Positions 32,153 to 56,201 of a stretch of 64,000 bases of DNA are shown here, piece by piece. Source of the DNA: Candidatus Planktophila lacus (GTDB lineage: Bacteria > Actinomycetota > Actinomycetes > Nanopelagicales > Nanopelagicaceae); assembly GCF_002287925.1 (NCBI RefSeq), contig NZ_CP016769.1:1-64000 (forward strand), read 5' to 3'. The first letter of the stretch is position 1. Every line of letters starts with the position of its first letter. The notes beneath the pieces were generated by a model that worked only from the letters and a program-made list of their open reading frames with translations, was not told the DNA's origin and made no database searches. The position numbers were made by a program, and so were the translations under genes.

Positions 32153-32161
32153 AGTTAACCC

Positions 32162-33219: not shown

Positions 33220-33228
33220 AGTTAACCC

Positions 33229-39796: not shown

Positions 39797-40884
39797 ACGG
39801 ACCAAATCTGAAGAACGAAAAGCTAATAGAAATTCAATTTCTTAGAGTTTTGGCCATAATGTCCGTGGTGATATTTCACTTCACTGCACGAAGAGCATCC
39901 GAGTTACCCTACGGAAAATGGGTTTCGGGCGAGCCGTGGTCTTTAGGCTGGATTGGCGTTGAATTATTTTTTATAGTTTCAGGTTTTGTGATTGCCTTTT
40001 CAATTTCAAGAACTTCAAGCATGAGAAATTTCCTGATAAATCGCGCGATTCGGCTATACCCAGCCTTAATACTGCTACTTCCTGCAGTTTATGTGGTTCA
40101 ACGATTTACGCCCCACTCTCCTTATTCAGATCGGTCTACGCTCTGGAATCTCATTGGATCTGCGACTTTAATTCCTCCGACAGTTCTAAATCATGTTTCC
40201 GATCAAAGTTTTGATTGGCTAACCCTAGTTCTCTGGTCACTAAAAGTAGAAGTGTTTTTTTATTTACTTTGTGCATTTATGGTCTTTCTAATCGGGAAAA
40301 ATCGCCTATCTCTAGCTTTAATTGTTTTCGTGACGATGATTAATTTCTTAGTAGGGTTAAATGAGTATTTAGATGATGACTCAATTTTTTGGGTAATAAA
40401 ATCAATAAAGGTTTTCGGCTTTGATTATTTGGCTTGGTTTTTGATTGGGGTTTTGATTTATGATTTAAGATTTAAGCCCAAATCTAAACTTCTTTCGGCG
40501 AGTTTAGTGTTAGTTTCAACCTCAACTTTGATTAATTTATACTTTGTAAATGATTCAAGTATCGGTACATCAATAGCTGGATTAGTCGTAGTGGGAGTCG
40601 CACTGGCCTTTGGGCTTTTTTGTGTAATTAAGCGATTCTGGATGGAGAAATGGATCTTGGCAATTGGGAATTCCAGTTATGAACTCTATTTAGTCCACCA
40701 AGGGGTGGGTTTGACTTTTTTGATTTATTTAGTTAATAGGTACGAGCTTGGGGCCGTAAATGGAACCCTATCGGGCATTTCTATTGTTGCTGTCCTAACA
40801 TACCTCTGTCATTTGATTTTCGTCCACATAACAGGACCTTTTAATTTAAGCATAAAGAGAGCAATACCCAAGAAATGGTATTAA
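39793..40884 (+). CDS. Membrane acyltransferase, family 3
   Basis: This 363-residue polytopic protein has about ten helices. The family 3 acyltransferase signature is clear: IQFLRVLAIMSVVIFHF with the catalytic His, then GWIGVELFFIVSGFVIAFS and an RAIRLYPALI motif. Such enzymes O-acetylate or succinylate cell-surface sugars from the cytoplasmic acyl-CoA pool. It overlaps the previous stop codon (ATGA). From here on the DNA is AT-richer, with more AGA, TTT and AAT codons, marking the start of the variable island. Confidence 0.9.
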   Translation: MNGPNLKNEKLIEIQFLRVLAIMSVVIFHFTARRASELPYGKWVSGEPWSLGWIGVELFFIVSGFVIAFSISRTSSMRNFLINRAIRLYPALILLLPAVYVVQRFTPHSPYSDRSTLWNLIGSATLIPPTVLNHVSDQSFDWLTLVLWSLKVEVFFYLLCAFMVFLIGKNRLSLALIVFVTMINFLVGLNEYLDDDSIFWVIKSIKVFGFDYLAWFLIGVLIYDLRFKPKSKLLSASLVLVSTSTLINLYFVNDSSIGTSIAGLVVVGVALAFGLFCVIKRFWMEKWILAIGNSSYELYLVHQGVGLTFLIYLVNRYELGAVNGTLSGISIVAVLTYLCHLIFVHITGPFNLSIKRAIPKKWY

Positions 40885-40967
40885 TAATCCCCCCCACATC
40901 GTGCAAGGTATCTAAATTTGCTTAGACTAATGGATATCCACTTCCTGTAACTAATTGCATATCTAGA

Positions 40968-40973
40968 TATGAT
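40968..40973 (+). promoter_or_regulatory. Leaderless -10 box of the polytopic membrane protein gene
   Basis: TATGAT, a near-consensus -10, is followed by exactly 6 nt and the ATG at 40980. Two other in-frame starts (TTG 40974, GTG 40977) overlap this spacing, but the box favours the ATG. The 89-bp spacer before it also has a run of 7 C after the acyltransferase stop. Confidence 0.5.
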
Positions 40974-40979
40974 TTGGTG

Positions 40980-42395
40980 ATGACCAAGCTAGCCCCATTC
41001 CTATTTTGGAAACTTTGGCTTGCTGTGTTATCAATATCGGTTTTGGTAGTGATTGCAAAATGGCCAAATGCTTCGGGTGAAGATATTACTCATTCTAGAG
41101 AATTTTTTCAGCAGGATTTGAGGAGTGACTTTCTAGGCAGTGTCGGAACTGTATTTTATGGCCTAATTCCAAATGGCTTTTTTTCTTGGTATCACAATCT
41201 ACTGTTGCTTCAAGTTTTGTTTACCAGTGTGGGCTTTTATCTTATCTTTAAAAATAGGACGTTTGCACAATCAAAAATCCGTAATGTTTCTCTTCTATTA
41301 ATTCTCTACTTTGGAATAATACTAGGTGCTGCTCAATCTAGAGATGGCATTATGCTTGCCTTCAGTGTATTTGGTATTGGGTTGTTTCTGGCTTCTAAAA
41401 ATGTAAAAATATCAAGTCTTAGATTTGCGATTTCTGTAGTGGCTTGGTTCATCGTTATTCTGGGATTTTCATTTCGTCCCTGGCTTTCTATTTCGCTCGT
41501 ATTCATTTTCTTGGCTGTATGGAAAATTCGAGACCAAAATAAATCGATTTCACGATTTGTATTAATAGGTGTTATTTTTGTCTTGCTTTCCTCACCAATG
41601 ATTATTGATCAATCCACGAAAAAGATCTGGAATCTTCAAGACGCTTATCCTCAACAAATTGTAATGATTCACGACCTTACGGCCACGTATTGCTGGAGCG
41701 TGAATGCATCGTCAGTCAAGCATGCGGCAGAAGGTTTGAGTGCACTTACTACAAACCCCGAGGCCCTTCGAGAGATCTGTCAATTTTTTAAACCAAATAC
41801 TTGGCAGGCTGTTTCAGGCTTTATTCCTTCAGCATTACCTACAAAAGGAATGGTAGCCCCGATTAAATTGATTGATCTAAATGACGACTCCCGGTATCAG
41901 AAGCTCCAAGAAGAATGGTTTCATGTGATTTCACGCGACCCGTTTACGTATATACAAAACCACATGTCCTTCGGCACTCAAGTGCTAATTTCGGGAGAGT
42001 CGCGCAATTTAAGCGTGGTCGAGACGGCGCAAGCACTTCTTGAAGATATTAGATTAGAGACTTCATTTAATTTCCTAGTATCTATCTTTGAATCACCATA
42101 CGAAATAGTTATTTCGTTGCATCTTCTTTCCCCTCTCGCTTTTCTTATCTTTTTAATTGCAGTTTATGTCAAAGATAGAAAGTTGGAATCTCAATTTTTG
42201 AGATTAGCTAGCGTCCGCTATGCCATACTCGCATTTATTTCCTGGATGGCGCTAACTATTCTCGCTTTTGCAAGTGATAACGGAAGATATACATATCAAC
42301 CAGTCTTTTTCTTGTATTTGGTTATGTTGCTAGAAAGCATCAAGCTTCCTACTGAATATTTCAAAAAGGAAAGTGATTTGAACCATGAAGAGTGA
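40980..42395 (+). CDS. Polytopic membrane protein, possible glycan polymerase
   Basis: The product (471 residues) is an integral membrane protein with about ten or more hydrophobic segments spread over its length, and one large loop between about 220 and 355. I do not recognise conserved motifs. Its place between an acyltransferase and a glycosyltransferase, its size and topology fit the poorly conserved Wzy O-antigen polymerase or glycosyltransferase-C groups, but this is inference. It overlaps the next gene by 11 bp, suggesting a joint operon. Confidence 0.65.
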   Translation: MTKLAPFLFWKLWLAVLSISVLVVIAKWPNASGEDITHSREFFQQDLRSDFLGSVGTVFYGLIPNGFFSWYHNLLLLQVLFTSVGFYLIFKNRTFAQSKIRNVSLLLILYFGIILGAAQSRDGIMLAFSVFGIGLFLASKNVKISSLRFAISVVAWFIVILGFSFRPWLSISLVFIFLAVWKIRDQNKSISRFVLIGVIFVLLSSPMIIDQSTKKIWNLQDAYPQQIVMIHDLTATYCWSVNASSVKHAAEGLSALTTNPEALREICQFFKPNTWQAVSGFIPSALPTKGMVAPIKLIDLNDDSRYQKLQEEWFHVISRDPFTYIQNHMSFGTQVLISGESRNLSVVETAQALLEDIRLETSFNFLVSIFESPYEIVISLHLLSPLAFLIFLIAVYVKDRKLESQFLRLASVRYAILAFISWMALTILAFASDNGRYTYQPVFFLYLVMLLESIKLPTEYFKKESDLNHEE

Positions 42396-43119
42396 TTTCA
42401 TTACATGCGTAGTACCTGCTAGAAATGAAGCAGGGCATTTGAGAGAAGTAATTTCACAGGTTAAATCAATTGAAGCGATTAAGGACATCATAATCGTAGA
42501 GGGTGGATCGAGTGATAAAACATGGAATGTATCCCTTGAATTAGCACAAGAGGATCCCACGATAATTAGAGCATTTCAGCAAACTGGAAAGGGAAAATTT
42601 AATGCTGTACAGCATGGCGCCGCCAATGCGAAGTACCCTTATCTGCTCGTGTGGGATGCGGATGGAACGGTTCCACTCGAATGCACCGTAAAAGTAATTG
42701 AACACGCTCTCGAATCGGGTCACGCAACAATGGGAGATCGATTGCGAGGTGAAATCGAGCCGGGGGCTATGCGCTTTGCGAACTGGGTCGCAAACTGGGT
42801 ATTTGCGTTCTTATGGTGGCCAATCCTTCACTCCAAACCTTCAGATATGTTATGTGGAACTAAGATTGTTCAAACTAGTGCCATCACCTCAATTCCCCAA
42901 TGGTTACTAAAAATCGACCCTTATGGAGATTTTGCGTTGATTGCGAATGCAAGATTCCAGGGCTACCAAATCCATTCCGTGGTTGTTGATTACGATGCTA
43001 GAAAATATGGCTCAACAAACATACATCGGTGGAGTGGAGGCTTCCGCCTGCTTTTTACAACCCTTTGTATCTACAGTTGGCTTCTATTACGAAAACGAGA
43101 AATTGATGAGCCAAAGTAA
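42385..43119 (+). CDS. Family 2 glycosyltransferase (dolichol-phosphate-mannose synthase-like)
   Basis: This 244-residue cytosolic enzyme has a GT-A fold: VVPARNEAGHLREVI at the N-terminus, IIVEGGSSDKTW, and the metal-binding DADGT (near 92). The C-terminal half resembles polyprenyl-phosphate glycosyltransferases (the DPM1 style), so it may charge undecaprenyl phosphate or transfer a sugar onto a lipid-linked glycan. It overlaps both neighbours, the membrane protein by 11 bp and the methyltransferase by 14 bp. Confidence 0.85.
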   Translation: MKSDFITCVVPARNEAGHLREVISQVKSIEAIKDIIIVEGGSSDKTWNVSLELAQEDPTIIRAFQQTGKGKFNAVQHGAANAKYPYLLVWDADGTVPLECTVKVIEHALESGHATMGDRLRGEIEPGAMRFANWVANWVFAFLWWPILHSKPSDMLCGTKIVQTSAITSIPQWLLKIDPYGDFALIANARFQGYQIHSVVVDYDARKYGSTNIHRWSGGFRLLFTTLCIYSWLLLRKREIDEPK

Positions 43120-43879
43120 AACGTACGAACAATTTCTAGAGAATCAGCTACGTAATTCAAAAATTCAAACAATCCAAGTATATTTTAAGTTTTTATATTC
43201 TTTAGTATATTCAAGACTTGCAGGTAAAAGAAATATTCTTGAAATAGGTTCAGGCGCTGGAATTAGTTCTGAATTTTTAAAAGGCCTTCAGGTCACACGT
43301 ACAGATTTGTTAGCGTGGAAAGATAACGATGTAATTGGTGGTATTGATGCTATGAATCTTCCCTATGAAGATGACGCTTTCGATGGAATTTTTGCCGTTG
43401 ATGCTTTGCACCATATCCCCTTCCCTGCAAAGGCTCTAACAGAGATGATTCGAGTTTGCGCGCCAAATAATCAGGTGATATTGGTAGAGCCTTACGTATC
43501 AATTCTATCATTTCCTGTCTATCGAGTGTTTCATACTGAAAAGACTTCTTGGAAAACGCTAAAATTTCATTTCGATCGTCCGATGGTTGGAGACAAACCA
43601 AATGAGGGCGATCAATGCATCGCCCAAAGTATTTTTCTAAATCTTGATAAATGTGATGAATTGAGAACCCTCTCAAGCAAAGAAATTACAATTGAAATTC
43701 AATATCTCAGTCCCCTTGCGTTTTTTGCAACGGGTGGATTGACCAAGCCAATCAGAGGGCTATCGATTTTAATCTCGGCACTTATTAAATTTGAGGAGAG
43801 AATGCCCCAATTCTTGCTCAAGCAACTTGGATCAAGGATCTTCGTTGTGATTGGAGTTCAGAGTCCCAAAATCGTCTAA
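43106..43879 (+). CDS. SAM-dependent methyltransferase (class I)
   Basis: The product is about 257 residues. The SAM-binding motif NILEIGSGAGISSEFL (near 45) and the post-motif DDAFDGIFAVDALHHIPFPAKAL are clear, fitting a Methyltransf_11-type enzyme. The start at 43106 is chosen because upstream codons in this frame lie inside the glycosyltransferase gene and have no family match. It probably methylates a sugar or lipid-linked glycan, given the neighbours; the target is unknown. Confidence 0.85.
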   Translation: MSQSKTYEQFLENQLRNSKIQTIQVYFKFLYSLVYSRLAGKRNILEIGSGAGISSEFLKGLQVTRTDLLAWKDNDVIGGIDAMNLPYEDDAFDGIFAVDALHHIPFPAKALTEMIRVCAPNNQVILVEPYVSILSFPVYRVFHTEKTSWKTLKFHFDRPMVGDKPNEGDQCIAQSIFLNLDKCDELRTLSSKEITIEIQYLSPLAFFATGGLTKPIRGLSILISALIKFEERMPQFLLKQLGSRIFVVIGVQSPKIV

Positions 43880-43992
43880 TCCGCACTAGCCAAGACTCGA
43901 AAGCTGCATCCAAATCACGAGCTGCCAAGCCGCGTTCAGGTTCCTCCAATGCTTGGTCATTAGCACCCCTCGGGATAGGGCAAAATTGCCCC

Positions 43993-44637
43993 ATGCGCTT
44001 AGACCATGTCTCATATGTAACGTCCCATGATCAATTAGCCGATACCGTGCAACGCCTAGGTTCACGCCTAGGAACAACATTTGTTGATGGCGGTATCCAC
44101 CCACGTTTTGGAACACGTAACTTCACAGCACCACTTCTTGATGGAAAATACATCGAAGTTGTTTGCCCGCTTGATCACCCAGCTACCGAACAAACACCTT
44201 GGGGTAAGGCAGTATCAAAGAAAGCACAGCAAGGGGGAGGCTGGCTTACTTGGGTGTTTAGTACTGAGGACATTTCACCAATCGAAGAAAAATTCGGTCG
44301 CAAGGCAGTGGACGGCCACCGCACACGACCAGACGGCACCGACCTCAAGTGGAAGCAAATTGGCGTTAAAGAAATCGAGGACTCACGCGAACTTCCTTTT
44401 TTTATTCAATGGCTAACCGAAGATCACCCATCCAAAGATGGAGTTACAGTTTCAAAGATTGAGAAGATCGTTATTTCGGACAAGGACCAACTTTCCGATT
44501 CATGGTTTAAAAACGAAATCCTTAGTGGATTAGATCAAATTTCAATTGATTGGGTGGATCCTTCAACACAGGAGGGTGAAACCGGAATCGTTGCGGTTCA
44601 TTTGAATACGCCGACCGGTGTTGTCAGGCTTGATTAG
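43993..44637 (+). CDS. Glyoxalase-like (VOC) domain protein
   Basis: The 214-residue protein starts MRLDHVSYVTSHDQLADTV, a glyoxalase-like strand-helix unit, and continues with FTAPLLDGKYIEVVCPLDHP, as in the Glyoxalase_3 group seen in actinobacteria. No enzyme activity can be assigned. Its codon use is like the core genes before 39.8 kb, not like the AT-rich neighbours, so it may be a resident gene left among imported ones. A GGGCAA-AA-TTGCCC inverted repeat (43978-43991) ends just before the ATG and may be an operator. Confidence 0.75.
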   Translation: MRLDHVSYVTSHDQLADTVQRLGSRLGTTFVDGGIHPRFGTRNFTAPLLDGKYIEVVCPLDHPATEQTPWGKAVSKKAQQGGGWLTWVFSTEDISPIEEKFGRKAVDGHRTRPDGTDLKWKQIGVKEIEDSRELPFFIQWLTEDHPSKDGVTVSKIEKIVISDKDQLSDSWFKNEILSGLDQISIDWVDPSTQEGETGIVAVHLNTPTGVVRLD

Positions 44638-44649
44638 AAAAATCTTTTC

Positions 44650-45546
44650 ATGGATGACGTTCCAGTCTTACTTCTCGGGTACAACCGCCCAGAATTCCTA
44701 GCTCAACGCATTCAAGAACTACGCAAGATTGCCCCGCCACTGATTTACATATCAATAGACGGCTCTAACGAATTAACGGAAATTGAGATTAATCGCCAAC
44801 TATCCTTGAATCTAGAAGATTGGCCAATTGGATCTTCGATTGTGTTGTGGCGACAGAGTGAAAATTTTGGGCTGACGCGCCACGTAACTTCAGCCATTGG
44901 GAGAGTTCTCAAAGAGCACCCCAATGTAATTGTGGTGGAGGACGATATTTCACTTTCGCCAAGTTTCTACACGAATATGATTCGTGGGTTTCGTGTTTTG
45001 AAAGAAAATAGCGTGCGAGGAACAGTAGGAGCATTTTCACCCATAAAGCTACCCAAAAAACTTGAGAGATTAAATCGGTGGAGAAAAACCCCCTATTTCT
45101 CATGCTGGGGTTGGGGGATATCAAGGGAAATTTGGGAAAAGTATCAAGTGGATCTAAGAAAAGAAAATATAGAATTATCGCTTTCTAAATCAAAAATCTG
45201 GAATGACTTATCGAGAACACAAAGAAATGTTTGGATGAGGAGATTCGAAAAAATTGTTTTATACCCACTTGATACCTGGGATGTACAGGTTCAATATATG
45301 TCATTCAAATACGACCTCGTTAGTATTCTTCCAATCTCGAGATTCATAGATAATGTTGGATTTTCTGATGAGCGTGGTGCTCATACCAAAGGTAATAAAC
45401 CGCGATGGATTATGTCAGATGGTTATTCAACTTCTAAAATACACACGAATTCAATTTCAAGGTTATCGCGACCCCTCACAAAACTAATCGACTCCAACAC
45501 TTTTGCGGGGGATTCTAAATTTTTTCAATGGTGGATGAGCAAGTAG
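44650..45546 (+). CDS. Glycosyltransferase (GT-A fold, GNT-I-like)
   Basis: The 298-residue protein begins PVLLLGYNRPEFLAQRIQELR, then ISIDGS and VIVVEDDISLSPSFY, the order seen in GNT-I/family 2-like glycosyltransferases, where EDD takes the place of the DxD metal site. Residues such as YFSCWGWGISREIWEKY near 160 are typical of this group in capsule clusters. It is AT-rich like the island. A terminator-like hairpin follows at 45583-45617. Confidence 0.8.
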   Translation: MDDVPVLLLGYNRPEFLAQRIQELRKIAPPLIYISIDGSNELTEIEINRQLSLNLEDWPIGSSIVLWRQSENFGLTRHVTSAIGRVLKEHPNVIVVEDDISLSPSFYTNMIRGFRVLKENSVRGTVGAFSPIKLPKKLERLNRWRKTPYFSCWGWGISREIWEKYQVDLRKENIELSLSKSKIWNDLSRTQRNVWMRRFEKIVLYPLDTWDVQVQYMSFKYDLVSILPISRFIDNVGFSDERGAHTKGNKPRWIMSDGYSTSKIHTNSISRLSRPLTKLIDSNTFAGDSKFFQWWMSK

Positions 45547-45582
45547 GTCTTACACCCACCCACCCCCAATCGATTACACCAG

Positions 45583-45617
45583 AACCTCATTACATGGCTA
45601 GACCGTAATGAGGTTTT
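45583..45617 (+). terminator. Rho-independent terminator
   Basis: AACCTCATTAC (45583-45593) pairs perfectly with GTAATGAGGTT (45605-45615) over 11 bp with an 11-nt loop, ending in a short T-run. It lies 36 bp after the glycosyltransferase stop and before a long gene-free stretch, so it probably ends the plus-strand transcript. Confidence 0.75.
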
Positions 45618-46043
45618 GCTAAACTTAAATAAAAAATTCACACTAATTTCTGGTTGTGAATACTTAAGAGTTGAAACTGCAAGTAAGACCATTTTCTCTA
45701 TCTTGATAAAATTCTTATCGAGCAGGTCTTCGTAATTAACGCACCTGCTCCAATTCCCAGCGATAGTTCGCAATTATTATCTTTGCTCAAGACAATCATG
45801 TTCAACTGAACGGATACGCCCTAAAGCAAATTTTATCGCCCACTCATATATTTGTCAGAATAAAAAGCACGCAATCAAATACTAATTGTTCACCCAATTA
45901 CAGTTCCACGCGCGTCTTAACGTTTTCTAGTAACTGACTTTTAGTATGATTTAAATCTCTAGTTGTCTATTCATTCCTGTAAGTCACTAAGAATGACAAC
46001 AGAAACCGCCGAAAGAGTATTTTGGAAGCTCTCTGGAAACTAA
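45618..46043. other. Gene-free AT-rich spacer
   Basis: About 430 bp with no convincing coding frame, RNA gene or repeat. It lies between the end of a plus-strand operon and the end of a minus-strand gene. The sequence is AT-rich and looks like decayed island DNA. A CAGAAACCGCC 11-mer at 46000-46010 recurs at 48010-48020, which may be chance. Confidence 0.5.
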
Positions 46044-46676
46044 CTAATTCTTTAAGATGTGTTTTTTACTCCAATAATCAAAACGCAATATTTGCCTTAA
46101 ACCTTCTTCTATTTTCCCAGCAAAATGTGGAGTATTCGTATCGAAAACGACCAACATTCCCCGTTTTCCTAAAATTGGAGAAAAATCTACAGCGGAGGTA
46201 TCAAATTCAGGTTGATTACTTTGATATTCCAAGGCAGCAGGATCCTTCATAAATATTTGCTTTCTTAACTCTTCAAAATCATTTGGATTTTGTTTGCTTG
46301 TTGTAAATGGACCGGATTCGAGATTTACATCGGTCAAGTACACCATTGCTTTTGTGTAACGTTGTGTATCTATGTGAGGTAAGAAAGGTGATGCTTTAGC
46401 TTCAAATGCATGGATAGAATTCGAAGTTGTGGTCTGGAACCACAATTTATGAAATTCTAAGTGTTTGTCGATTTGTTTCATGATTTTTTCGATATCTCGA
46501 AACAAATCACTCAGAACTTCAGATTCAGAATTCTCGATATCGGCTTTCTTGAACTCGACTACACCTGGTCGACTTTCTGGTAATTGAAAAAATTTTTTTA
46601 ACTCATCAATATGCCCTTCATCCAAGAATTGATGTTGGACATAACACCCAGTTGATTTCACTTCTTGAAGTGTCAT
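46044..46676 (-). CDS. Fe(II)/2-oxoglutarate-type dioxygenase (phytanoyl-CoA dioxygenase-like)
   Basis: The product (210 residues) shows the iron-binding triad of cupin-type dioxygenases: His101 and Asp103 in LPHIDTQRY, His184 in NTPHFAGK, and a following Arg (LRQILRF, near 194-198) for 2-oxoglutarate. It probably hydroxylates a small molecule or sugar precursor. The ATG at 46676 is chosen because GGGAGG lies 5 nt upstream; a further ATG at 46712 lies directly on a TATACT -10 box (46713-46718), so it cannot be in the mRNA. A tRNA relic lies just behind the promoter. Confidence 0.8.
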   Translation of the reverse strand: MTLQEVKSTGCYVQHQFLDEGHIDELKKFFQLPESRPGVVEFKKADIENSESEVLSDLFRDIEKIMKQIDKHLEFHKLWFQTTTSNSIHAFEAKASPFLPHIDTQRYTKAMVYLTDVNLESGPFTTSKQNPNDFEELRKQIFMKDPAALEYQSNQPEFDTSAVDFSPILGKRGMLVVFDTNTPHFAGKIEEGLRQILRFDYWSKKHILKN

Positions 46677-46737
46677 TTCTGCCTCCCGCTTATTCTCAAG
46701 AAAATTGTGCATAGTATAGTCATTATTTCAACCTCCT

Positions 46738-46783
46738 AGCGGGATGAGTCGGACTTGAACCGAAGAAGTCCGAATTATGAGTC
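46738..46783 (-). other. 3'-half tRNA(CAU) relic A
   Basis: On the minus strand the segment reads as the 3' part of a tRNA with exact domain lengths. It has anticodon loop CTCATAA (anticodon CAT), 3' anticodon stem TTCGG, 5-nt variable loop, T-arm TTCGG-TTCAAGT-CCGAC and acceptor 3' strand TCATCCC followed by G. The 5' anticodon stem (GGCGA) no longer pairs, and no D-arm or 5' acceptor follows, so the tRNA is cut in the anticodon stem. The terminal CCA is CTA here. Such 3' halves are what integrases leave when they recombine at a tRNA anticodon arm. Confidence 0.75.
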
Positions 46784-46909
46784 GCCAGAGACTAAGACCT
46801 ACGCGTTCCCTATTGTGCTCGGGTTGTTGAGATTACACTCAATTTCAACGAGAAACACCCATAGCTCAGCACGCCATTGCACCAACTATTTTTGCGATAT
46901 CGGCTTATT

Positions 46910-47825
46910 TCATTTCAGAGATAAAAATCCTTTTAAAAAGTGAGTTATTCTTTTTAATAAAGCAGGAGAGTTTAGGAATAAAGCTAGATTAAGAGCCATT
47001 CTTTTATCAGATGCAGTCCGATCATTTTTACCAATCAGAAATGAAGCGAGTGCCGTGAATCCGTAATTTGATAAAATGTATGAAATGTGTTCAATTGATG
47101 AATGAGATTGAAGGCGATTATCTTCGTAGTTATCTTCAAAAATGTTTTTTCTACACAGCAAAACAGATACACCTATAACTTCTCTTTTACTTGAATTGAT
47201 TTCAGTACCTTTTGGCAGCCAAGTTACTGCTGGTTTCAAATCGATTGCCACGTAACCATTAAGACGTGCCCACCCTAAGATTTGTTCCAAGTTTCCGCTT
47301 TCATGATAAATGCTATTTAACCAAGTGTGCACAAAAATGAGTGGTTGGTATTTGTCACAAGTTTTAATTGCTCCTTGAAGAATTTCATACTCAGAACCTT
47401 GGGTTACTATGCGAATCAGATGAATTTTTTCAAGCGAATGTTCTTTTTCTATTAAACTATCGAGCGTAGTCACATTTACTTTAACTTCTTTCAATACATC
47501 ATATCTTGAAGAGTGTTGATCGAAACGCCCTGGTATTTGTGGTTTATAAATCGAACTGCAAAGCTCTTGTCTTGTGACATACAGTGTTGCTTCCGATTCT
47601 TTGCTCCCTAACAATAAAGGGAATTTGTTAGAAGGCGATTCAAGCAAGTCTGTGTCCGCACCAAATTGTATTTGGTTGATGTTCTGTCTGGAAATCTTTA
47701 TATCAACTGGGGGATTCGGCGAATTTGTTCCGATGTCAAGGACGTTAAGATGAACATCGGATAGAGTTATTTTTTGGGGCGAAGCGAGAACGGGGGGGGG
47801 GGGTGACCTTTTTGAAGAAAATCAT
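46910..47825 (-). CDS. FkbM-family methyltransferase, out of frame at a 12-G tract
   Basis: An ATG at 47825 (minus strand) behind GGAG starts MIFFKKVTPPP, and then the frame is lost in a run of 12 C (12 G on the plus strand, 47792-47803). With 11 the frame runs on through VLASPQKITLSDVHLNVLDIGT into the long downstream frame and gives a protein of about 304 residues. The downstream part has FkbM features: EATLYVTRQELCSSIYKP, VNVTTLDSLI and IRIVTQGSEYEILQGA. As read, the only long open frame starts at a TTG (47647), is 245 residues long and lacks the SAM-binding N-terminus. This is either a phase-variable gene in the off state, a decaying gene, or a homopolymer sequencing error. FkbM enzymes O-methylate sugars and other hydroxyls. 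Confidence 0.75.
47792..47803. repeat. Homopolymer tract of 12 G (C on the coding strand)
   Basis: Twelve consecutive G bases interrupt the FkbM methyltransferase frame at codons 8-12. It is the longest G/C run in the window; the next longest I saw are 8 C (in 53220-53235) and 7. Slippage by one base would restore the reading frame, and tracts of this kind drive on/off switching of surface genes in Campylobacter and Neisseria. Confidence 0.85.
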
Positions 47826-48127
47826 CTAGTCTCCTAATTCCCTTGTCGCTATTTCTGTTGTCGGCTTAAGCTACTCCTCTACCTAGCTCCTGATCTTACC
47901 TTAAGATTTTTGAGCTTTCCGAATTTGGGCCGACAAAACGATTCGAGATCATATTCTCCGCGAAAAATCTTGTTCGAAAACACCTATGCGCACCTAATCA
48001 ATCAAGAGGCAGAAACCGCCAGTGGAATGTTCGCCAACGCCTTTAATGCCTAAATTGCAAGAGTGTTAGACAAGTTAGCTATAAATAGTTATTTAAAGTT
48101 TAATAGTGAACATAATCGCAGTTCAAG
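47826..48127. other. Gene-free spacer between two island modules
   Basis: About 300 bp with no credible coding frame. On the minus strand it contains the FkbM ribosome site (GGAG, close to 47830-47834) and probably its promoter, and it follows the tRNA relic at 48128-48177. The sequence is AT-rich without obvious repeats. Confidence 0.5.
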
Positions 48128-48177
48128 TGGTGGGGCAGATAGGGCTCGAACCTACGAGGACCGGATTATGAGTCCGT
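48128..48177 (-). other. 3'-half tRNA(CAU) relic B with encoded CCA
   Basis: The minus strand reads as tRNA positions about 27 to 76: anticodon arm ACGGA-CTCATAA-TCCGG (four of five pairs; anticodon CAT), 5-nt variable loop, T-arm GTAGG-TTCGAGC-CCTAT, acceptor 3' strand CTGCCCC, discriminator A and CCA. The 5' half is absent; the protein gene at 48166-49164 runs into it instead and uses the TAA of the anticodon loop as its stop. The acceptor sequence differs from relic A, so two different tRNA genes or variants were the sources. The two complete tRNAs in this window do not encode CCA. Confidence 0.8.
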
Positions 48178-49164
48178 CCATGCGTGATTTGTTATGTGTA
48201 ATTTTCGGGCGGCATCAATTAACCCACATATAGTGTTGTCAGAGACGTTTAAAACAGCGAAGTGATGGGACTTTGATGTAGCCCAGTATGGATTGGATTC
48301 TCTTCCGGTTATTCTGAGGTCATTAAATGGCAAATCGTCCAATATCTGAAATCCCGAAGCTTTATCGATACTTATTTTGGAGAAGCCAAGTGATTTGCCG
48401 TAACTGTCTGAGCAATCTTGGAAAGGCCTTATGAGGGAACCATTCCACTGAAACACCGCCCCTGCATTTCGCGCAAAATCTTTCCCTTTATATAATCCAG
48501 ATGAGCCATGTTCAATATACGGCCCAGTGATACTTTCAGCCATGAATACGCGTATTGAGTATTCATCGTCTATCCCGTAAATCCAAAAGAATCCATCAAT
48601 TTCATGAATATTGGGGTCATATATACTAATCGGAATAGACCCAACGGCATCCAAATTATTTAATTGCAAATCATATTTATATACCTGAGTCTCTAGCTGC
48701 TGTGAGTACTCTTCAATTACCAAGTAAAGTTCCCCTTGAACGATAATTGGATAAGGATAAGAAATAGTATGAGTTCGATTCACTCCTGCTTTATCATTTG
48801 CATACTTTACAACCGAAAAATTCTCAATGAAGGTTAAACTTTCATTAGTCTCCACTTTGGCAATAGCGGTAACATACTTATCGCCTACGTACCCACATAT
48901 TTCAAAAAAGATGAGAAGTTTACCTTTGAAAGAAATTAGGAATGGGTCACACACAAAATAATCAGTAAATACAACTCCATCATCCGTTCTAAAATCGAAA
49001 AAAGTATAGTTCTGCCCCAGAAGAGGAAATTGGTCTAACTTATAGTCCAGATTATTTACATCGAGCAAACATTTGCCAATAGACCAATAGAATTTATGCG
49101 AGGAACCCTTAGGAGTATCCCTAAGGGTCGTCTTTCTATGGGAAAAGTACTTCTTCATATTCAT
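48166..49164 (-). CDS. Beta-propeller glycan-cluster protein (GINT1 N-terminal-like)
   Basis: The 332-residue protein resembles the five-blade propeller domain (GH43-like) named after the N-terminus of glucosamine inositolphosphorylceramide transferase: CDPFLISFKGKLLIFFEI, SYPYPIIVQGELYLVIEE, IDGFFWIYGIDDEYSIRVFMAESITGPY and FARNAGAVFQWNGSLIRPFQDCSDSYG. In bacteria this domain is found next to formyltransferases and glycosyltransferases in surface-sugar clusters; its activity is not established. The last residues (HAWTDS) and the stop come from the tRNA relic, so the original C-terminus may have been replaced. The start overlaps the upstream gene (ATGA). Confidence 0.72.
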   Translation of the reverse strand: MNMKKYFSHRKTTLRDTPKGSSHKFYWSIGKCLLDVNNLDYKLDQFPLLGQNYTFFDFRTDDGVVFTDYFVCDPFLISFKGKLLIFFEICGYVGDKYVTAIAKVETNESLTFIENFSVVKYANDKAGVNRTHTISYPYPIIVQGELYLVIEEYSQQLETQVYKYDLQLNNLDAVGSIPISIYDPNIHEIDGFFWIYGIDDEYSIRVFMAESITGPYIEHGSSGLYKGKDFARNAGAVFQWNGSLIRPFQDCSDSYGKSLGFSKISIDKASGFQILDDLPFNDLRITGRESNPYWATSKSHHFAVLNVSDNTICGLIDAARKLHITNHAWTDS

Positions 49165-50468
49165 AAAGTTATTACGCCAGCCGCATGTAATCTACCTAAG
49201 AGAGATTCAACTTCTTGAAAATTTAGGGATAGCGATTTACAAATTTGTATTGTATCTGTTTTCCCATCTAGCATGTTCAAAATATTCAAGATATTTCTGG
49301 CTTCCAAATGGGAAGTATTTCCGTCTTTGTTAATATTTGGGTACAGACCAAGTGAATCGAGCTTCGGTTCACCAACATTGTTATTGATGTAGATTCTATT
49401 TCGCTCGAGAATATAAATAATCTCAGAATAAAACTTTATAGATTTAGACAACCCTGCTTCACTTATAAACCCTAAATCATCCAAGGAAGTGTGATATTCA
49501 GGATAGTCATGATATTTGTTTGTCATTACTGAACAGACTGGCCAATTTATCGCGGGACTACACCATTGCCTTTCATCACTTCCCCTTTTTAGAAAATCCG
49601 ACCGCTTAAATTCATAGTTGAGTAGGGCAAGTTCGGCAACTCTATCCGCAAGGGTCATGCCATAACGAGATGGCATGAAAACGAGATCGGAATCTACTCC
49701 AACACATGTAAGAACATATCCTGCGACAATAGATTTTGAGATTTCAGTTCGACGCAAGCTGAGGTAATGAATTGCCCCTATAGTTTCGGGTCCAATATAG
49801 AAGCGATATGAGTACCTCAACTCATTTCTTAAAGATTTTTTCCAAAGTGAATTTACAAGGCTCATCCAAACAGCTGGACCAGAAAGTTCATTATTTGCCA
49901 TCTGCGGGTGACAAAAGTAAGTTGAAAAGAAAACTTCTGTATCTTCGCGGCCTGGAATAAAAATCTCGCCAAGTCTCATAACCCCTGGTGGGGAAGTTGT
50001 ACTGATCCGCACCCTATAGTCCCCCGCTTCAAGAGTTTCAACAACAGAGTAAGGCAAACAGACTCCCCAAGTTTTTGAGTAGTAGGACGTCACATATGGA
50101 ATTGCTGTGGGTAAATCAGAACGAGTGTGAATGTGGCTTAGCAACTCTTGGAGTTCAAATATCGCATCAATTGACTGAGAGCCAACCACCACATATAGAT
50201 TCGAAAGCTCCAGATCTATCAATTCTTCGCCATTAGGGCTTACGAGAGATGCGGAGACCAGATTCCATTCATTAGGAACTGTCCAGCCATTAAAATCTGT
50301 CCCGCTGGGAATATCAATGAAATTGATTTTTGGGATTAGAAAAGATTCAAGCACGCTCATGGAATCCAAATTTCCTTTTGAAACAATTGAGCGCGGAATC
50401 TGGAATGCCTGGATGCAAAAATCCATTGCAGCTTTAGCGTCCTGCTGAAAATCTACATTCTCGGACAT
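49161..50468 (-). CDS. DUF4910 aminopeptidase-like protein
   Basis: The 435-residue protein matches the DUF4910/DUF2172 group of M28-related peptidase-like proteins. It has FIDIPSGTDFNGWTVPNEWN, a conserved metal-site-like FFSTYFCHPQMANNELSG (His/Asn/Glu), then GSDERQWCSPAINWPVCSVM and YHDYPEYHTSLDDL with further His/Asp ligands, and a C-terminal winged helix (about 370-435). These proteins recur in bacterial glycan clusters, often beside NeuB-type genes; a role in deacylating or trimming an amino-sugar adduct has been suggested only by context. It overlaps both neighbours. Confidence 0.8.
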   Translation of the reverse strand: MSENVDFQQDAKAAMDFCIQAFQIPRSIVSKGNLDSMSVLESFLIPKINFIDIPSGTDFNGWTVPNEWNLVSASLVSPNGEELIDLELSNLYVVVGSQSIDAIFELQELLSHIHTRSDLPTAIPYVTSYYSKTWGVCLPYSVVETLEAGDYRVRISTTSPPGVMRLGEIFIPGREDTEVFFSTYFCHPQMANNELSGPAVWMSLVNSLWKKSLRNELRYSYRFYIGPETIGAIHYLSLRRTEISKSIVAGYVLTCVGVDSDLVFMPSRYGMTLADRVAELALLNYEFKRSDFLKRGSDERQWCSPAINWPVCSVMTNKYHDYPEYHTSLDDLGFISEAGLSKSIKFYSEIIYILERNRIYINNNVGEPKLDSLGLYPNINKDGNTSHLEARNILNILNMLDGKTDTIQICKSLSLNFQEVESLLGRLHAAGVITL

Positions 50469-51391
50469 AAAATTTCCATGAATTTCAAATCGGCGTACAC
50501 CTGGTAAATACTTTGGAGAGTCGAGATACCTTTGGAATCCAAATATGGATTATTCATCTTTGAGATACCTTCGACACGAGTAAAACTATAGCCCAAATTA
50601 GGAAACTGAAATAAAGATAAATCCACTAGTGCGCTTGAGTAAATAGACCACCATTTTGTCGGGATCGGAGAGCTTTGGAGCACTAAACTAATACTGTCCG
50701 AGTTTTCGCTACAAATTTCAGAAATTATAGAAGAGTTGAACTTCAAAATTTCTCGTCTATGCATATAATATTTAACGGAAGTGCAATTATGAAAATTCAT
50801 GGCGTTAAGGACTAGAAATTCTAAGTCACCAAGGCTCATGAAACCGCTTTCTACCAAAGGACTCCCAAATACACCCAATATGCCTGGCTCTGTTTTCAAA
50901 TCAGAGAAATCTAGGGATTCACACCGGCGGTGACTCTCGAGCGAATAAACTTTCGAATCCAGCAAATGTGCATAGGAACTATAAAAGCTGAACTCCTTAG
51001 TTCTATTTTCTTTCACCAATAATTTAGCAATGGAAACCACTATCAACCCGTCGTCTAAGACAATTTTTCTTGACTTGGAAACAGTTTCGAAATATTCACG
51101 ACAGAAATATCCCAAGATATTTCCCAGTACAAACTCTATAGTTTTAAAGTTACGGCCGAAAAAAACAAAAAGTGGATGGATTTTTGAGTAGATTTTTTCA
51201 GAAAGGAAGAGAGTATTTTTAGGTTTTAATTTCTTAAGCGCATGTTTGTACTGAGTCTGACTTAACTGGGTTTGGTCTGCGAGATCAAAAACGACACAAA
51301 TATTGAAATAAGACGATCCCACATCATCTAGAAATCTTCCGAGCTCAACAACCTGCTTAGGTGAATTTGTTAGAGATAGAAAAAATCTCAT
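50453..51391 (-). CDS. Putative sialyltransferase-like glycosyltransferase (GT52/polysialyltransferase type)
   Basis: The 312-residue protein has the late pattern seen in bacterial sialyl- and polysialyltransferases: a DDG loop near the middle (KIVLDDGLIVV), then GVFGSPLVESGFMSLGDLEFLV followed by YYMHRRE, which corresponds to the conserved G-x-P-L-x-E and H-P-R-E blocks. No signal peptide is seen. The match is from a few short blocks, so the family call is moderate. Together with the NeuA/NeuB genes nearby, transfer of a CMP-nonulosonic acid is the natural guess. Confidence 0.6.
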   Translation of the reverse strand: MRFFLSLTNSPKQVVELGRFLDDVGSSYFNICVVFDLADQTQLSQTQYKHALKKLKPKNTLFLSEKIYSKIHPLFVFFGRNFKTIEFVLGNILGYFCREYFETVSKSRKIVLDDGLIVVSIAKLLVKENRTKEFSFYSSYAHLLDSKVYSLESHRRCESLDFSDLKTEPGILGVFGSPLVESGFMSLGDLEFLVLNAMNFHNCTSVKYYMHRREILKFNSSIISEICSENSDSISLVLQSSPIPTKWWSIYSSALVDLSLFQFPNLGYSFTRVEGISKMNNPYLDSKGISTLQSIYQVYADLKFMEILCPRM

Positions 51392-51997
51392 TTAGCTATT
51401 ATTCGTTAATTTCACATTACGAGTGAAGAGAAAATCTCTCATATTTGAGAATTTCAGTTGACTTTGGTTTGACCAGTTGATTGAAGAGGAAACGCTGTGT
51501 TCAAACAAGGCTCCCCTTTCTTTATAATTATTAAAATAGTGCGGTTTGTCAGAAGGTTTATTAAGTCTATAGTCAAAATCACACCCGAAAAGACAAATAT
51601 CAGTGGCGCCAAAATGAAGCGCAACTAGAATCCCAAAATCCAATACAACATTAGCATTCATATTTTGCACAAGGGGAAACTCATTTACAAACTCTAACGC
51701 GATCGACTTCGATAAGAGATTTTCATAACTTTGAAAAAAATCTCTAGAGTCAACTTCTTTAAATAGTGAAGCTAGATTTTCACTCAAGAATACTTCCTGC
51801 GTCGCGCTAGTGATAGCTTTCTTCCATTCCTCAGAATGCCCGAACCTTTGATCCGCGCACACATAAATTACTTGATTATTCCAATCCGAAAAATTCTCCC
51901 AAATTAAGCGATTTGTGATCAAAACCTTATCAAAAGATTCATAGAGTGCTTGATCTAAAATTAGACTAGGCCCATTTCCAAGTATTGCAATCTTCAT
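51392..51997 (-). CDS. DUF115/GT42-like protein
   Basis: The 201-residue protein starts MKIAILGNGPSL, an N-terminal motif shared by GT42 sialyltransferases (Cst-II type) and DUF115 proteins. It later has VLDFGILVALHFGATDICLFGCDFDY, which fits DUF115 better. Proteins of both groups act on or with CMP-nonulosonic acids in surface glycosylation. It is a compact single domain. It directly follows the formyltransferase gene (ATGA overlap) and precedes the GT52-like gene, so a joint role is likely. Confidence 0.6.
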   Translation of the reverse strand: MKIAILGNGPSLILDQALYESFDKVLITNRLIWENFSDWNNQVIYVCADQRFGHSEEWKKAITSATQEVFLSENLASLFKEVDSRDFFQSYENLLSKSIALEFVNEFPLVQNMNANVVLDFGILVALHFGATDICLFGCDFDYRLNKPSDKPHYFNNYKERGALFEHSVSSSINWSNQSQLKFSNMRDFLFTRNVKLTNNS

Positions 51998-52830
51998 TGA
52001 TCAACCAGGTTAGGCGTCCTGAGCTTTGGTAGTGGAAGAACAGAATCATTTGGCCACAATGCATCCAGCACTTGGTCATCAAACAAATTATAGATTAACT
52101 CTAAATGGGAGATTCTAAAGTCTGTCGTTAGAAAAGTTTTGCCAACTATCGGTTGTGGTTCCGAAAATAGATTCGATTTCTCTAGGAGTCGATCAAACAG
52201 TCTTCCTAAATCTCTTTTTCCTGCTTTTACAGATGCTATCGCGGTTTCGTGGAGAGTTAGATTCCGTTCGAAAACTGGAAGCGTCTGATGAAGTATGTCA
52301 CCGGCATCAGGCTGAAGATTTATTCGGTGAAAAGTGATTCCTGTGCTGAAGGGATCCATGAAATAAGTTGGCCAAAATAAGGTGGCAGAACCACGATACT
52401 TCGGGGAAAGTCCGAGATGAATATTAAATGTCTCCTCCGGAAGCAGGTCCAAAGTCTCATTTGTTAGCATCCCTGCCCCCATAACAATGCATGCATTTGC
52501 ACCAAAGGATTGAATTGACTGGTGAACAGTGTTTTCATTGAGTTGATCAGGAGTAATTTTTGTGAGACTGACATGCGGAAGGTACTCGTAGGCACTCAGA
52601 TCCTTGCTTCCGTAATGCTCACTTTCGAGCCGCTGTCGCAATTTGAAATGGTGACTAAAAAGTTTGCGTTGCGCGGGACTTGGATTCCTATCCTTAACCG
52701 GAAAATCTGGTAACAACGACTCTCGTTGCATGAAAATGATTTTAAATTGAACCTGGGAGTGTTGTGTAATGACATCCCTCAGAATGTATTCGTGTCTAGG
52801 GTGTGAACCGGAAATTATTAAAACTTTCAT
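51994..52830 (-). CDS. Sugar N-formyltransferase-like protein
   Basis: The 278-residue protein has the formyltransferase core of Fmt/ArnA/VioF enzymes. The catalytic triad is complete: Asn136 and His138 in FNIHLGLSPKYRGS, and Asp178 in QPDAGDIL. These enzymes move a formyl group from N10-formyl-tetrahydrofolate to an amino group; in this setting an amino sugar is the likely acceptor rather than Met-tRNA, since it sits between an Idh-type dehydrogenase and glycosyltransferases. It shares one base with the dehydrogenase gene upstream (TAATG) and 4 bp with the gene downstream. Confidence 0.85.
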   Translation of the reverse strand: MKVLIISGSHPRHEYILRDVITQHSQVQFKIIFMQRESLLPDFPVKDRNPSPAQRKLFSHHFKLRQRLESEHYGSKDLSAYEYLPHVSLTKITPDQLNENTVHQSIQSFGANACIVMGAGMLTNETLDLLPEETFNIHLGLSPKYRGSATLFWPTYFMDPFSTGITFHRINLQPDAGDILHQTLPVFERNLTLHETAIASVKAGKRDLGRLFDRLLEKSNLFSEPQPIVGKTFLTTDFRISHLELIYNLFDDQVLDALWPNDSVLPLPKLRTPNLVDQ

Positions 52831-53777
52831 TAAATCAATTCCTTCTCAATCATTTCAATTAACTTAAGTACCGAAATTGCCTGCGATAAATCGCAGTCTG
52901 TGCTCGCGTAATCGCCAGCTTCCAGGAATTCTCTGAATGAAAATACCTGTGCCTGAAACCCTGGTTTGTATAAAGTTAGTGGTTCAGCTAATTCCAGTGC
53001 TACATGAGGGATGTATCTTCTAAGTGGATATTCTGAGTTGGGCTCAAAGATTTCGATTTTATCAAATTCGGATATATTCTCAAAACCTTTTGATAATATG
53101 GTGCGCCCTCCACCTGAAATCTTTATACTTACATTTTCAGGCGACCCCCAGTTTGTAAGTAGCGAAATTATATGACCGTCATCCGATTCAAGCTGAACCA
53201 TAAAGCCATTCCCGGTCTCTTCAATCCCCCCCCACGCTCCTTTGATAACTAAAGGCCCTGAGATGTATTGTAGAAAATCAATCATGTGGCAGCCATTAAT
53301 TCGAAATTGATCAAACGTTTTAATGGAATCAGGAAAGTTTGCTTGAATAAAGGAAGAAGGATTACTCCTAAGAAAATTACGCATTTTTGAAGCGCTCGCG
53401 TAGTAACGACGATTATAAGCAAAAAAGAGCTTATTTTGGTTTTTGTGATTTGCAAACTGCAACAAGTCAGTGGAACGGAGACCACCCGGTTTCTCTATAA
53501 ATATAGGTAACCCAGTAGAAATAACCTGACTAATCGCAAAAGGTGTAACCGAAGTTTCAAGTGCGATGACAATGGCGTCAACACTGTCGCATTCCTGAAG
53601 GAAGCTTGAAAGATTGGGGCTCACTGGAATACTCCAGCGATCTCCAAACGCCTTCAATCTATTTGAGCCCGATCGGCTAAATGCAATCTTCGGTGCGAAT
53701 CCAGCGTCAAGAAAAGCAGGTAGATGAAAATTGGATATTGGGCCGCTTCCCCAGTAAGCCAATTTGTAACTTTTCAT
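52830..53777 (-). CDS. Gfo/Idh/MocA family oxidoreductase
   Basis: The product (about 315 residues) has an N-terminal Rossmann fold (KLAYWGSGPISNFHLPAFLDAG) and the family EKP motif in PIFIEKPGGLRS (near 95). The C-terminal domain is the usual alpha/beta sheet. These enzymes oxidise or reduce sugar hydroxyls with NAD(P). The start ATG 53777 overlaps the stop of the gene upstream (ATGA); the longer reading from 53789 is less likely. It contains a run of 8 C (about 53225-53232) that does not break the frame. It pairs with the next oxidoreductase. Confidence 0.85.
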   Translation of the reverse strand: MKSYKLAYWGSGPISNFHLPAFLDAGFAPKIAFSRSGSNRLKAFGDRWSIPVSPNLSSFLQECDSVDAIVIALETSVTPFAISQVISTGLPIFIEKPGGLRSTDLLQFANHKNQNKLFFAYNRRYYASASKMRNFLRSNPSSFIQANFPDSIKTFDQFRINGCHMIDFLQYISGPLVIKGAWGGIEETGNGFMVQLESDDGHIISLLTNWGSPENVSIKISGGGRTILSKGFENISEFDKIEIFEPNSEYPLRRYIPHVALELAEPLTLYKPGFQAQVFSFREFLEAGDYASTDCDLSQAISVLKLIEMIEKELI

Positions 53778-54781
53778 GTGACCCTCCAAGATTTAGTGTA
53801 GGAATTCAGGTCAAGTCTCGTAGATTGTAAGTCTTGCTGAGTCAATTTTCTTTTATGTGATAGCTGCATAGCTAGAATTATTATCTCGTTAGCCCTAACA
53901 GAACCTTGGAAATCCAACGGATCAGGGCAATCTCCGCTGAGGGAATCCAAGAGAGATTCAAAAGAATTAATGGAGCCAGGTATTAGGTTCCCTTGATCGC
54001 ACATTGTTGCTAAGTCATATTTCTTCGATGATCCTAACTTAGGTAGATCATTTCGAAAGACCTGGTATTCGCCAGAAAAATTTAGCGATACATGCCCTTC
54101 TTCAAAAAGTAATAATTGCATTGGAGTAACTCTAGATAGTTCGCTGTACTCAAATCTAATTCGCTTCCCTCCAATTAGAACTTGTATTTCTCCGATGGCG
54201 GTATCAAATTTTGGACGATTTTTTTGAATTGAAAATTTCAGATTACCCGATATCTCAAATTCTTTTTGATCAAGTGTGAACAATTCATTGAGCGAAGCTA
54301 ACCAATGAACACCACCAGAAGCAAGGCACATTGCGCCTCCAATTGAACTGAAACTAATTAATTCACCCAAATCAAATCTCTCATTCAACCGAGAAATTCC
54401 AGAGGTGACTCCAAGTAATTTCCAACGGTTATGAGATCTAAATTGTACTTTCGGATTAGACGCTTGCAGTGAAACCAATGTATCTAATTCAGACAGGCTG
54501 TTAGTCAAGAGCTTTTCTACAATGAGATATTTAGGGCTAAGCGCTACAGCCATGATCGCATTTTCAAGATGCGAGTCTGCGGTTGTAGCAACAACAATAT
54601 AGTCAAAAACAGATTCTAAATTTTCTAATTGGTCTACCAAGGTCAATTCCTGAATTTCTTGTTTGAGATCAGCTGACTTCTTTGATTCCCGTTCGCACAA
54701 ATACATCGAGTGACCCAGCTTTACGCCCGCAAGTAGATAATTTTTCCCAGCACTACCCCCGCCGATTACCAAACCTTTCAT
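53774..54781 (-). CDS. Gfo/Idh/MocA-like oxidoreductase
   Basis: The 335-residue protein begins with a nucleotide-binding GLVIGGGSAGKNYLLAGVKLGH and continues with DYIVVATTADSHLENAIMAV and LIVEKLLTNSL, where EKL replaces the common EKP. Two dehydrogenases of this family next to a NeuA gene are often seen in legionaminic/pseudaminic-type clusters, for example in Campylobacter ptm loci; the substrate is not known. The gene lies 5 bp after the NeuA stop. Confidence 0.8.
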   Translation of the reverse strand: MKGLVIGGGSAGKNYLLAGVKLGHSMYLCERESKKSADLKQEIQELTLVDQLENLESVFDYIVVATTADSHLENAIMAVALSPKYLIVEKLLTNSLSELDTLVSLQASNPKVQFRSHNRWKLLGVTSGISRLNERFDLGELISFSSIGGAMCLASGGVHWLASLNELFTLDQKEFEISGNLKFSIQKNRPKFDTAIGEIQVLIGGKRIRFEYSELSRVTPMQLLLFEEGHVSLNFSGEYQVFRNDLPKLGSSKKYDLATMCDQGNLIPGSINSFESLLDSLSGDCPDPLDFQGSVRANEIIILAMQLSHKRKLTQQDLQSTRLDLNSYTKSWRVT

Positions 54782-54786
54782 GCGCC

Positions 54787-55503
54787 CTAAGATCTTCTTT
54801 TTAAGATTGAAGAAACGATCTCAAGGTCGAATTCCGTATCAATATCGTAGGCATCTTCTTGTGAAATATCTACATAACCAACTCTGGTTTGAAATGTGTT
54901 TAAACCGTCGATGTTGTATTCCTGGTTCATCAAGGCATGCTTTGCCAATCCACACATTGTGCCCCCATTAAAGCGCACCACCCTTGGTAACTCCTGACGA
55001 TTAGACCAAAGAGTGTGCGCATCTATTTGATTAAAAGGAATAATGGTTTCATTTTTTATTACTTGCATCGCCCTGTAAGGATGGTGCTCAATTTCGTTCA
55101 CAGTAAAAACCCAATCAAAATTGCCGGATTGAATTTTTTCTACTGTTTCATTTATTTGTGATACTTTGCGAAGTGGAGTTGTTGGCAGAAGCGCGCAGAA
55201 ACTATGCGGAAGTTCATTCCTAGACTTTAAAAACTCCATCGCAAACTTGTACACCAAGAACATGTGTGCGGTATCGGTGGCAGTGTCCTCTGGCCTTAAA
55301 ACCGGGCACTCTGCGCCATAATTCAAGGCTACTTGTTGAATTTCAAGGGAGTCGGTCATGACTATGACGCGATCGAGATTTGATTCCAGTCCCGCTTTGA
55401 TTGCATGCGCAATCAACGGGACGCCGTCAAGTAACCTCAGATTCTTGTTAACTATGCCTTTCGACCCCCCTCGAGCGGGGATTAATCCAACGGTTGACGC
55501 CAT
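54787..55503 (-). CDS. CMP-nonulosonic acid synthetase (NeuA-like cytidylyltransferase)
   Basis: The product (about 238 residues) activates a nine-carbon acid sugar with CTP. The key CTP-binding loop is GLIPARGGSKGIVNKNL at the N-terminus, followed by LLDGVPLIAHAIKAGL and VLRPEDTATDTAHM, as in NeuA/PseF/LegF enzymes. The ATG at 55503 is favoured by AAGGA at the right distance; an ATG four codons earlier (55515) is also possible. It leads a minus-strand operon of at least eight genes down to 48166. Confidence 0.9.
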   Translation of the reverse strand: MASTVGLIPARGGSKGIVNKNLRLLDGVPLIAHAIKAGLESNLDRVIVMTDSLEIQQVALNYGAECPVLRPEDTATDTAHMFLVYKFAMEFLKSRNELPHSFCALLPTTPLRKVSQINETVEKIQSGNFDWVFTVNEIEHHPYRAMQVIKNETIIPFNQIDAHTLWSNRQELPRVVRFNGGTMCGLAKHALMNQEYNIDGLNTFQTRVGYVDISQEDAYDIDTEFDLEIVSSILKRRS

Positions 55504-55589
55504 GGCTTCCTTCATTCTCTCAATTTCTTTAGACTAGCATTTGACAATGAAACCATACCGAATTGAAGCAAATTAGTGGAGGCAAGACC

Positions 55590-56201
55590 ATGGAACCACT
55601 AATTTCTGTTGTAGTTTGCGCCTGGAATGAAGAGTTATATATCCAAACTTGTATTCGATCACTCCTTAATCAGAAAATTGAAGCGCCATTTGAGATTATT
55701 CTTGTAAATGACGGCAGTACAGACTCAACTTTGAAGGTAATGGAAAACTACCGAGATATCGAAATGGTAAAAATCAAGTCAAACGTCAGAAATATGGGAA
55801 TTGGGTATACATCCAATGTGGGAATCAGAATGGCACATGGTCGATACGTGGTGAGGGTTGATGCGGACGACTATGTCTCTGAGTATTTCCTTCAAACACT
55901 ATTTCTCGCGATGAACGATGTAGTTACTCACAAAGCAGTCAGCTGCGATTATCATTTAGTCTCTAAAAATGGCGAAATAATCGGTAGGAGAAGTTTTCCA
56001 GATGCTCCTATCGCATGTGGAATTATGTTCGAAAAGGAAGCACTAATAAACATCGGACTCTACAATGATGATTTAAGAGTCTTTGAAGAGAGAGAACTAC
56101 TGGAAAGGTTTATTCGAAGTTACAAGATGTTGAATTTACCGATAAGTCTATACCGGTATAGAATGCATGAAGCAAATACCAGCCGGGCGACATTAAACTG
56201 A
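55590..56201 (+). CDS. Family 2 glycosyltransferase
   Basis: This roughly 203-residue, single-domain GT-A protein begins PLISVVVCAWNEELYIQTCIRSLLNQ. It has the nucleotide-binding EIILVNDGSTDSTLKVME and the metal-binding DADDYVSEYF (near 82). It is short, lacking the C-terminal region of larger family 2 enzymes. The ATG at 55590 is chosen because GGAGG lies 9 nt upstream. It diverges from NeuA and is followed 11 bp later by NeuB. Confidence 0.88.
   Translation: MEPLISVVVCAWNEELYIQTCIRSLLNQKIEAPFEIILVNDGSTDSTLKVMENYRDIEMVKIKSNVRNMGIGYTSNVGIRMAHGRYVVRVDADDYVSEYFLQTLFLAMNDVVTHKAVSCDYHLVSKNGEIIGRRSFPDAPIACGIMFEKEALINIGLYNDDLRVFEERELLERFIRSYKMLNLPISLYRYRMHEANTSRATLN

Follow-up and report, generated by a model that had tools for sequence, protein, structure and literature searches.

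A C12 tract in the first codons of an FkbM-family methyltransferase gene in Candidatus Planktophila lacus: a candidate phase-variable locus in a streamlined lake bacterium

Gene switches that work by slippage in simple repeats are known mainly from host-associated bacteria. In the poly-G/C contingency loci of Campylobacter, Neisseria and Helicobacter, a long G/C run sits among the first codons of a surface-modifying type of gene and the frame is ON at one length in three; these organisms carry many such tracts, and their switching has been measured. For C. jejuni NCTC11168, 29 loci of seven or more are given in PMC4965091. Two described cases come from actinobacteria. In the sortase pilus switch of Bifidobacterium breve, a G run of 10-11 inside the gene brings two frames together at one of its lengths, and mixtures of lengths were measured, cultures of the pilus-locus G11 tract being described as containing about 37% G11 and about 60% G12 (PMC9187656). 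In Propionibacterium acnes, 54 variable tracts are described, consisting of G/C runs that lie between genes or affect frames (PMC4746626).

The locus considered here was found in Candidatus Planktophila lacus, within a window that spans the initial 64 kb of a genome of 1,460,061 bp in one contig (coordinates in Table 1). The initial annotation had proposed that a 12-base run puts an FkbM methyltransferase out of frame, and the elements of this proposal held when they were re-examined. The ATG, the GGAG 5 nt upstream of it and the break of phase by C12 after codon 7 were confirmed in the sequence: the ATG frame starts with MIFFKKV, the C run begins at codon 8 and, with the 12 C of the assembly, a frame script ends the reading after 26 residues. 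The same script confirmed that 11 C joins both frames into a protein of 304 residues and gave joined FkbM frames of 305 aa at 14 C and 303 aa at 8 C, and none at 9, 10, 13 or 15 C. At 11 and 14 C the ATG at 47825 is the sole upstream start; at 10, 12 and 13 C there is none. On the downstream side, no in-frame ATG or GTG was found within 260 nt of the tract, and the earliest alternative start is a TTG situated 144 nt downstream, beyond the VLDIGT strand. Further disabling mutations, which the initial annotation had named as the mark of a plain pseudogene, were also looked for, and the 293-codon body contains no internal stop. Read from the sequence, a change in tract length thus toggles the frame of an otherwise intact FkbM gene. 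The promoter scan around the gene gave no signal (4 promoter-like sites versus a shuffle mean of 3.8), and terminator-like sites numbered 2, compared with 1.1 in shuffles.

Table 1. Features of the FkbM locus (positions in the window) and gene-start G/C runs of at least 11 in the order (genome, and placement of the run relative to the open frame)
Feature	Position or genome	Strand	Basis or placement
12-G run, C12 on coding strand, candidate switch	47792..47803	+	sequence
ATG start of FkbM reading, seven codons before tract	47823..47825	-	sequence and frame script
GGAG, Shine-Dalgarno-like, 5 nt before ATG	47831..47834	-	read from sequence
FkbM-family methyltransferase body, 3' of tract, open to stop, 293 residues	46910..47791	-	
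tRNA-Met(CAT) 3'-half remnant, downstream of FkbM gene	46741..46782	-	88% identity to genome's tRNA-Met
Second tRNA-Met 3'-half remnant, CCA end, upstream of FkbM gene	48128..48176	-	80% identity
Neighbour gene, GINT1_N-like, probable glycan enzyme (inferred)	48166..49164	-	PF24793, 3.9e-18; no NCBIfam match
Neighbour gene, 222 aa	46044..46712	-	no Pfam or NCBIfam match at E 0.001
FkbM gene	own genome		in first codons
Tyrosine recombinase	G066		run touches TTG, 6 nt before ATG
Tyrosine recombinase	G073		61 nt upstream
UbiA-family gene	G073		10 nt upstream
LuxR-type regulator	G212		within first codons
LuxR-type regulator	G188		66 nt upstream
CtaG	G166		7 nt upstream
Response regulator	G287		within first codons

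Membership of the encoded protein in the FkbM family was borne out by two profiles, both above their curated cut-offs: PF05050 matched the frame at 46910-47764 (minus strand) with 1.8e-12 and 48.2 bits (cut-off 22.7), and TIGR01444 (NCBIfam) reached 39.9 bits (cut-off 37.7). In such enzymes, motif I for SAM binding is a loop of the DxGxN type. Judged by eye, the motif-I loop of this protein, DIGTNSPNPP, deviates from the usual DxGxN-G form, and VLDIGTNSPNPP resembles in part only the loop IIDVGANIGQ of the homologue in genome G002; the alignments to PF05050 and TIGR01444 both begin after motif I. A single-sequence structure model had a mean pLDDT of 38, unusable for the fold, and the search for related solved structures returned none that was credible (best E 0.25). 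Among 60 genomes, own included, a homologue search recovered the protein itself and a single match, that in G002, with 28% identity (E 7e-6). Orthologues were confirmed for 0 of 72 pattern matches in the genome contig collection and 0 of 6 in the viral one, searches that reach close relatives only and may omit records near this genome. No relatives were found among phages, a plasmid search gave one weak match (28.6% over 30%), and a comparison of the whole same-species genome G091 with positions 39700-55600 revealed no DNA match to the FkbM gene.

The run itself is exceptional in its genome. As the initial annotation had stated, no homopolymer in the window is as long, the next longest being at most 8, and the tract is the sole G/C run of at least 9 in the whole genome. 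With independent bases at 44.6% GC (that of the window), 3.1 runs of at least 9 and 0.03 runs of at least 12 would be expected, and a chance origin was therefore rejected. In the genus as a whole (135 genomes), 14 runs of at least 9 are found in 12 genomes, own included, and four of them are at contig ends.

The survey of long G/C runs covered the 296 genomes of the order, of which 12 contain runs of at least 11, at 14 places in total. Six of these (G129:C32, G141:C36, G007:C10, G282:C8 and two in G189:C66) were left out because each abuts a contig end or lies no more than about 60 bases from one, and poly-G in such places may be artefactual. All eight remaining runs are located at most 70 nt upstream of an open frame or in its first codons (Table 1), gene starts being taken from open frames and not from annotated genes. 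In the control sequence, made of the window plus five further stretches, the zone from 70 nt upstream to 40 nt downstream of a start takes in about 9% of positions and 46 of 298 G/C runs of 4-8; eight out of eight has P ~4e-9 at the 9% background, with a 70-nt limit that was set after seeing the tracts. Not every tract of this set has the frame logic of the FkbM gene. The LuxR frame in G212 has an ATG one base past the tract and may therefore be expressed whatever the tract length. In G287, other ATGs leave the response-regulator frame open at lengths of 18 and 21 as well, so that both would switch less cleanly than FkbM. The 15 runs of exactly 10, each in a different one of the 296 genomes, follow the gene-start pattern less clearly: six precede a start by 2-43 nt (L076, L078, L079, L080, L085 and L090), one (L084) is about 31 codons into a frame that it throws out of register, two (L083 and L087) are of uncertain placement, one (L088) is at a contig end, and five (L077, L081, L082, L086 and L089) are more distant from starts. 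A G10 tract also accompanies an OafA-type acyltransferase in the order.

Two of the regions with recombinases have features of their own. In L056 (G073:C2), positions 2421-10190 encode two tyrosine recombinases, one of which is preceded by a 12-G run, lying amid three large proteins that partly resemble each other and are surface-type by impression (one was scanned and had no Pfam match); inverted repeats, 189 nt (93%) and 178 nt (94%) long, are also present, and the region is a candidate invertible gene cassette. In L055 (G066:C11, 4787-8142), the recombinase with a 12-G run adjoins a 772-residue protein that has no Pfam match.

The CtaG tract offered information on how such runs may arise. 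A CtaG-type match is present in 25 of the 27 genomes of the genus g25, and the leaders of 15 orthologues (55-100% identity; matches at about 26-31% were left out) were compared. The tract is G13 in G166 versus G10 at the same place in G160, the two proteins being 93% identical: gene-start runs can vary in length between close relatives. In the other 13 leaders, a run of 3-6 G just ahead of the start is seen nine times and GGAGG once, and three leaders lack both. From these sequences, the CtaG tract appears to have expanded from a G-rich ribosome-binding site, an origin for which a switch is not needed. The enrichment at gene starts was consequently rejected as proof of switching, given that the CtaG leaders reveal another source. 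Growth of a ribosome-binding site does not fit the FkbM tract, because there the C is on the coding strand, inside the frame and after a separate GGAG.

The mutability of these tracts was approached through a survey of mismatch repair in genomes at least 90% complete, with control genomes positive in 11 of 14 cases for MutS_V and in 7 of 14 for NucS_C. MutS_V (PF00488) was detected in 0 of 13 genomes of the genus, own included, and in 1 of 8 genomes drawn from other families of the class; the figures for NucS_C (PF01939) were 0 of 13, own included, and 8 of 8. Actinobacteria in general are described as being without MutS and MutL, and indels as not being corrected by NucS (PMC8228993). Since NucS does not correct indels, it is the absence of MutS, and not that of NucS, that bears on slippage; the apparent loss of NucS in the genus, which adds to the absence of MutS usual in actinobacteria, is a separate oddity.

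These observations can be integrated by assuming that the tract is a simple-sequence contingency locus, assembled in its OFF phase and switching by slippage, a model that is our best explanation and that we rate as evenly balanced between true and false. In this model, replication slippage at C12/G12 would lengthen or shorten the run by a base. With 11 or 14 C, translation from the ATG at 47825 would read through and produce the 304- or 305-residue methyltransferase (ON), while at 12 C, as in the assembly, or at 13 C it would stop within 26 residues and the enzyme would not be made (OFF); one tract length in three would thus yield the methyltransferase. Slippage is presumed to be frequent in the cell, reversible and selected, the enzyme would modify a surface glycan, and escape from phages through the altered surface is offered as a hypothesis. 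The proposal of phase variation in the initial annotation stands as that of a candidate: it is favoured by the tract and its frame arithmetic, the FkbM family, the intact body, a run unique in the genome, the recurrence of gene-start tracts across the order, the lack of a MutS match and the probable sugar enzymes nearby. Against it stand the presence of one tract in the genome instead of a suite, the lack of a close FkbM relative in the collections searched and the divergent motif I. The variation of tracts in P. acnes, which is described as following clades and as suggesting slow change (PMC4746626), also weighs against fast switching.

The genomic setting bears both on the target of the enzyme and on the first of the rival explanations. 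The neighbours include probable sugar enzymes, as judged from the PF24793 match and from PseF-like and NeuB-like matches nearby, the latter two under their NCBIfam equivalog cut-offs, and from family and neighbourhood together the target is probably a surface glycan. GC per kb is 35-45% from 40 kb on, the FkbM region included, versus 49% at 38-40 kb, and when the window was compared with positions 36000-72000 of G091 it matched only at 35463-39781 (91.5%) and 43952-44643 (82.8%). The gene is flanked by two tRNA-Met remnants in the same orientation, about 1.39 kb apart, between which no integrase was found and the FkbM frame is the only ORF of at least 80 aa. These remnants suggest that the gene came with a tRNA-integrating cassette, perhaps a tycheposon-like one. 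It could then be that the gene is decaying, having arrived with a mobile cassette and been killed by a recent frameshift in a slippery run, with no selection for switching. The position in a low-GC stretch of which little is common to same-species G091, the tRNA-Met remnants on both sides, the failure to find close relatives and the divergence of motif I all agree with such a history. However, the body retains 293 codons without a further stop, and a 12-base run is unexpected by chance and is not created by a single frameshift. On balance we regard decay as unlikely.

Two further features of the same assembly are worth recording. Positions 31369-33503 contain an exact 1,068-bp tandem repeat with a period of 1,067, made of a topA-like end and a galE-like start (we take the genes to be topA and galE), which leaves a truncated galE copy and is either a real duplication or an assembly fault. 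Likewise, identical tRNA-Met genes are found at G000:C1:413383 and 414636, 1,253 bp apart, and the flanks shown are alike; on this sequence evidence, the pair looks like a second tandem duplication.

A second rival explanation is that the run was miscounted, its true length being 11 and the FkbM gene simply on, with the twelfth base introduced by sequencing or assembly. The B. breve report describes tract lengths in cultures that are unlike the database sequence and urges caution (PMC9187656), and the topA/galE duplication, if it is an assembly fault, would point in the same direction. Yet a run of truly 11 bases at a gene start would remain prone to slippage, and therefore a miscount, which we consider improbable, would alter the present state of the gene more than the mechanism. 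It is also conceivable that transcriptional slippage or ribosomal frameshifting makes some enzyme from the 12 C with the DNA unchanged, as a long run invites slippage, but to our knowledge C runs are not the usual slippage sequence of RNA polymerase, and we hold such read-through to be very improbable.

Returning to the contingency locus, a broader and doubtful extension can be formulated: the Nanopelagicales, in which at least one genus shows neither MutS nor NucS, may possess a small hidden phasome. Its poly-G/C switches would act at the starts of genes of several kinds, namely regulators (of the LuxR and response-regulator types), recombinases that have large surface-type proteins next to them, and glycan-type genes (FkbM, UbiA and the G10-bearing OafA-type acyltransferase). 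Slippage would here replace the sensory regulation lost in streamlining and diversify the surface against phages. If the switch is real, clonal lake populations would carry standing variation hidden from consensus genomes. An isolate of Planktophila is described together with two of its phages (PMC10202952), and hence the question of switching can be tested.

How, then, does this locus compare with those described? The initial annotation had considered that phase variation would be unusual in a streamlined planktonic actinobacterium. This fits the literature found, since no report of phase variation in Nanopelagicales or freshwater acI was retrieved from open-licence full texts, a body that leaves most subscription journals and bioRxiv preprints outside; what must be qualified is that the mechanism is described in another actinobacterium (PMC9187656). 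Within the families PF05050 and TIGR01444, the protein stands above both cut-offs, yet its motif I is divergent and it has no close relative in the collections searched. With the loci of Campylobacter, Neisseria and Helicobacter it shares the long G/C run, its position in the first codons, the surface-modifying type of gene and the frame that is ON at one length in three; unlike them, it is one tract, with switching predicted from sequence, in a free-living planktonic host. The P. acnes tracts are also actinobacterial and, as described, numerous (PMC4746626), in contrast to a single tract in one assembly. A parallel in an actinobacterium with a joining of two frames is the B. breve switch (PMC9187656), although there the gene is a pilus gene with measured length mixtures and here it is a methyltransferase. 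Therefore, while the mechanism is already known, Bifidobacterium included, its setting in a streamlined lake bacterium looks new.
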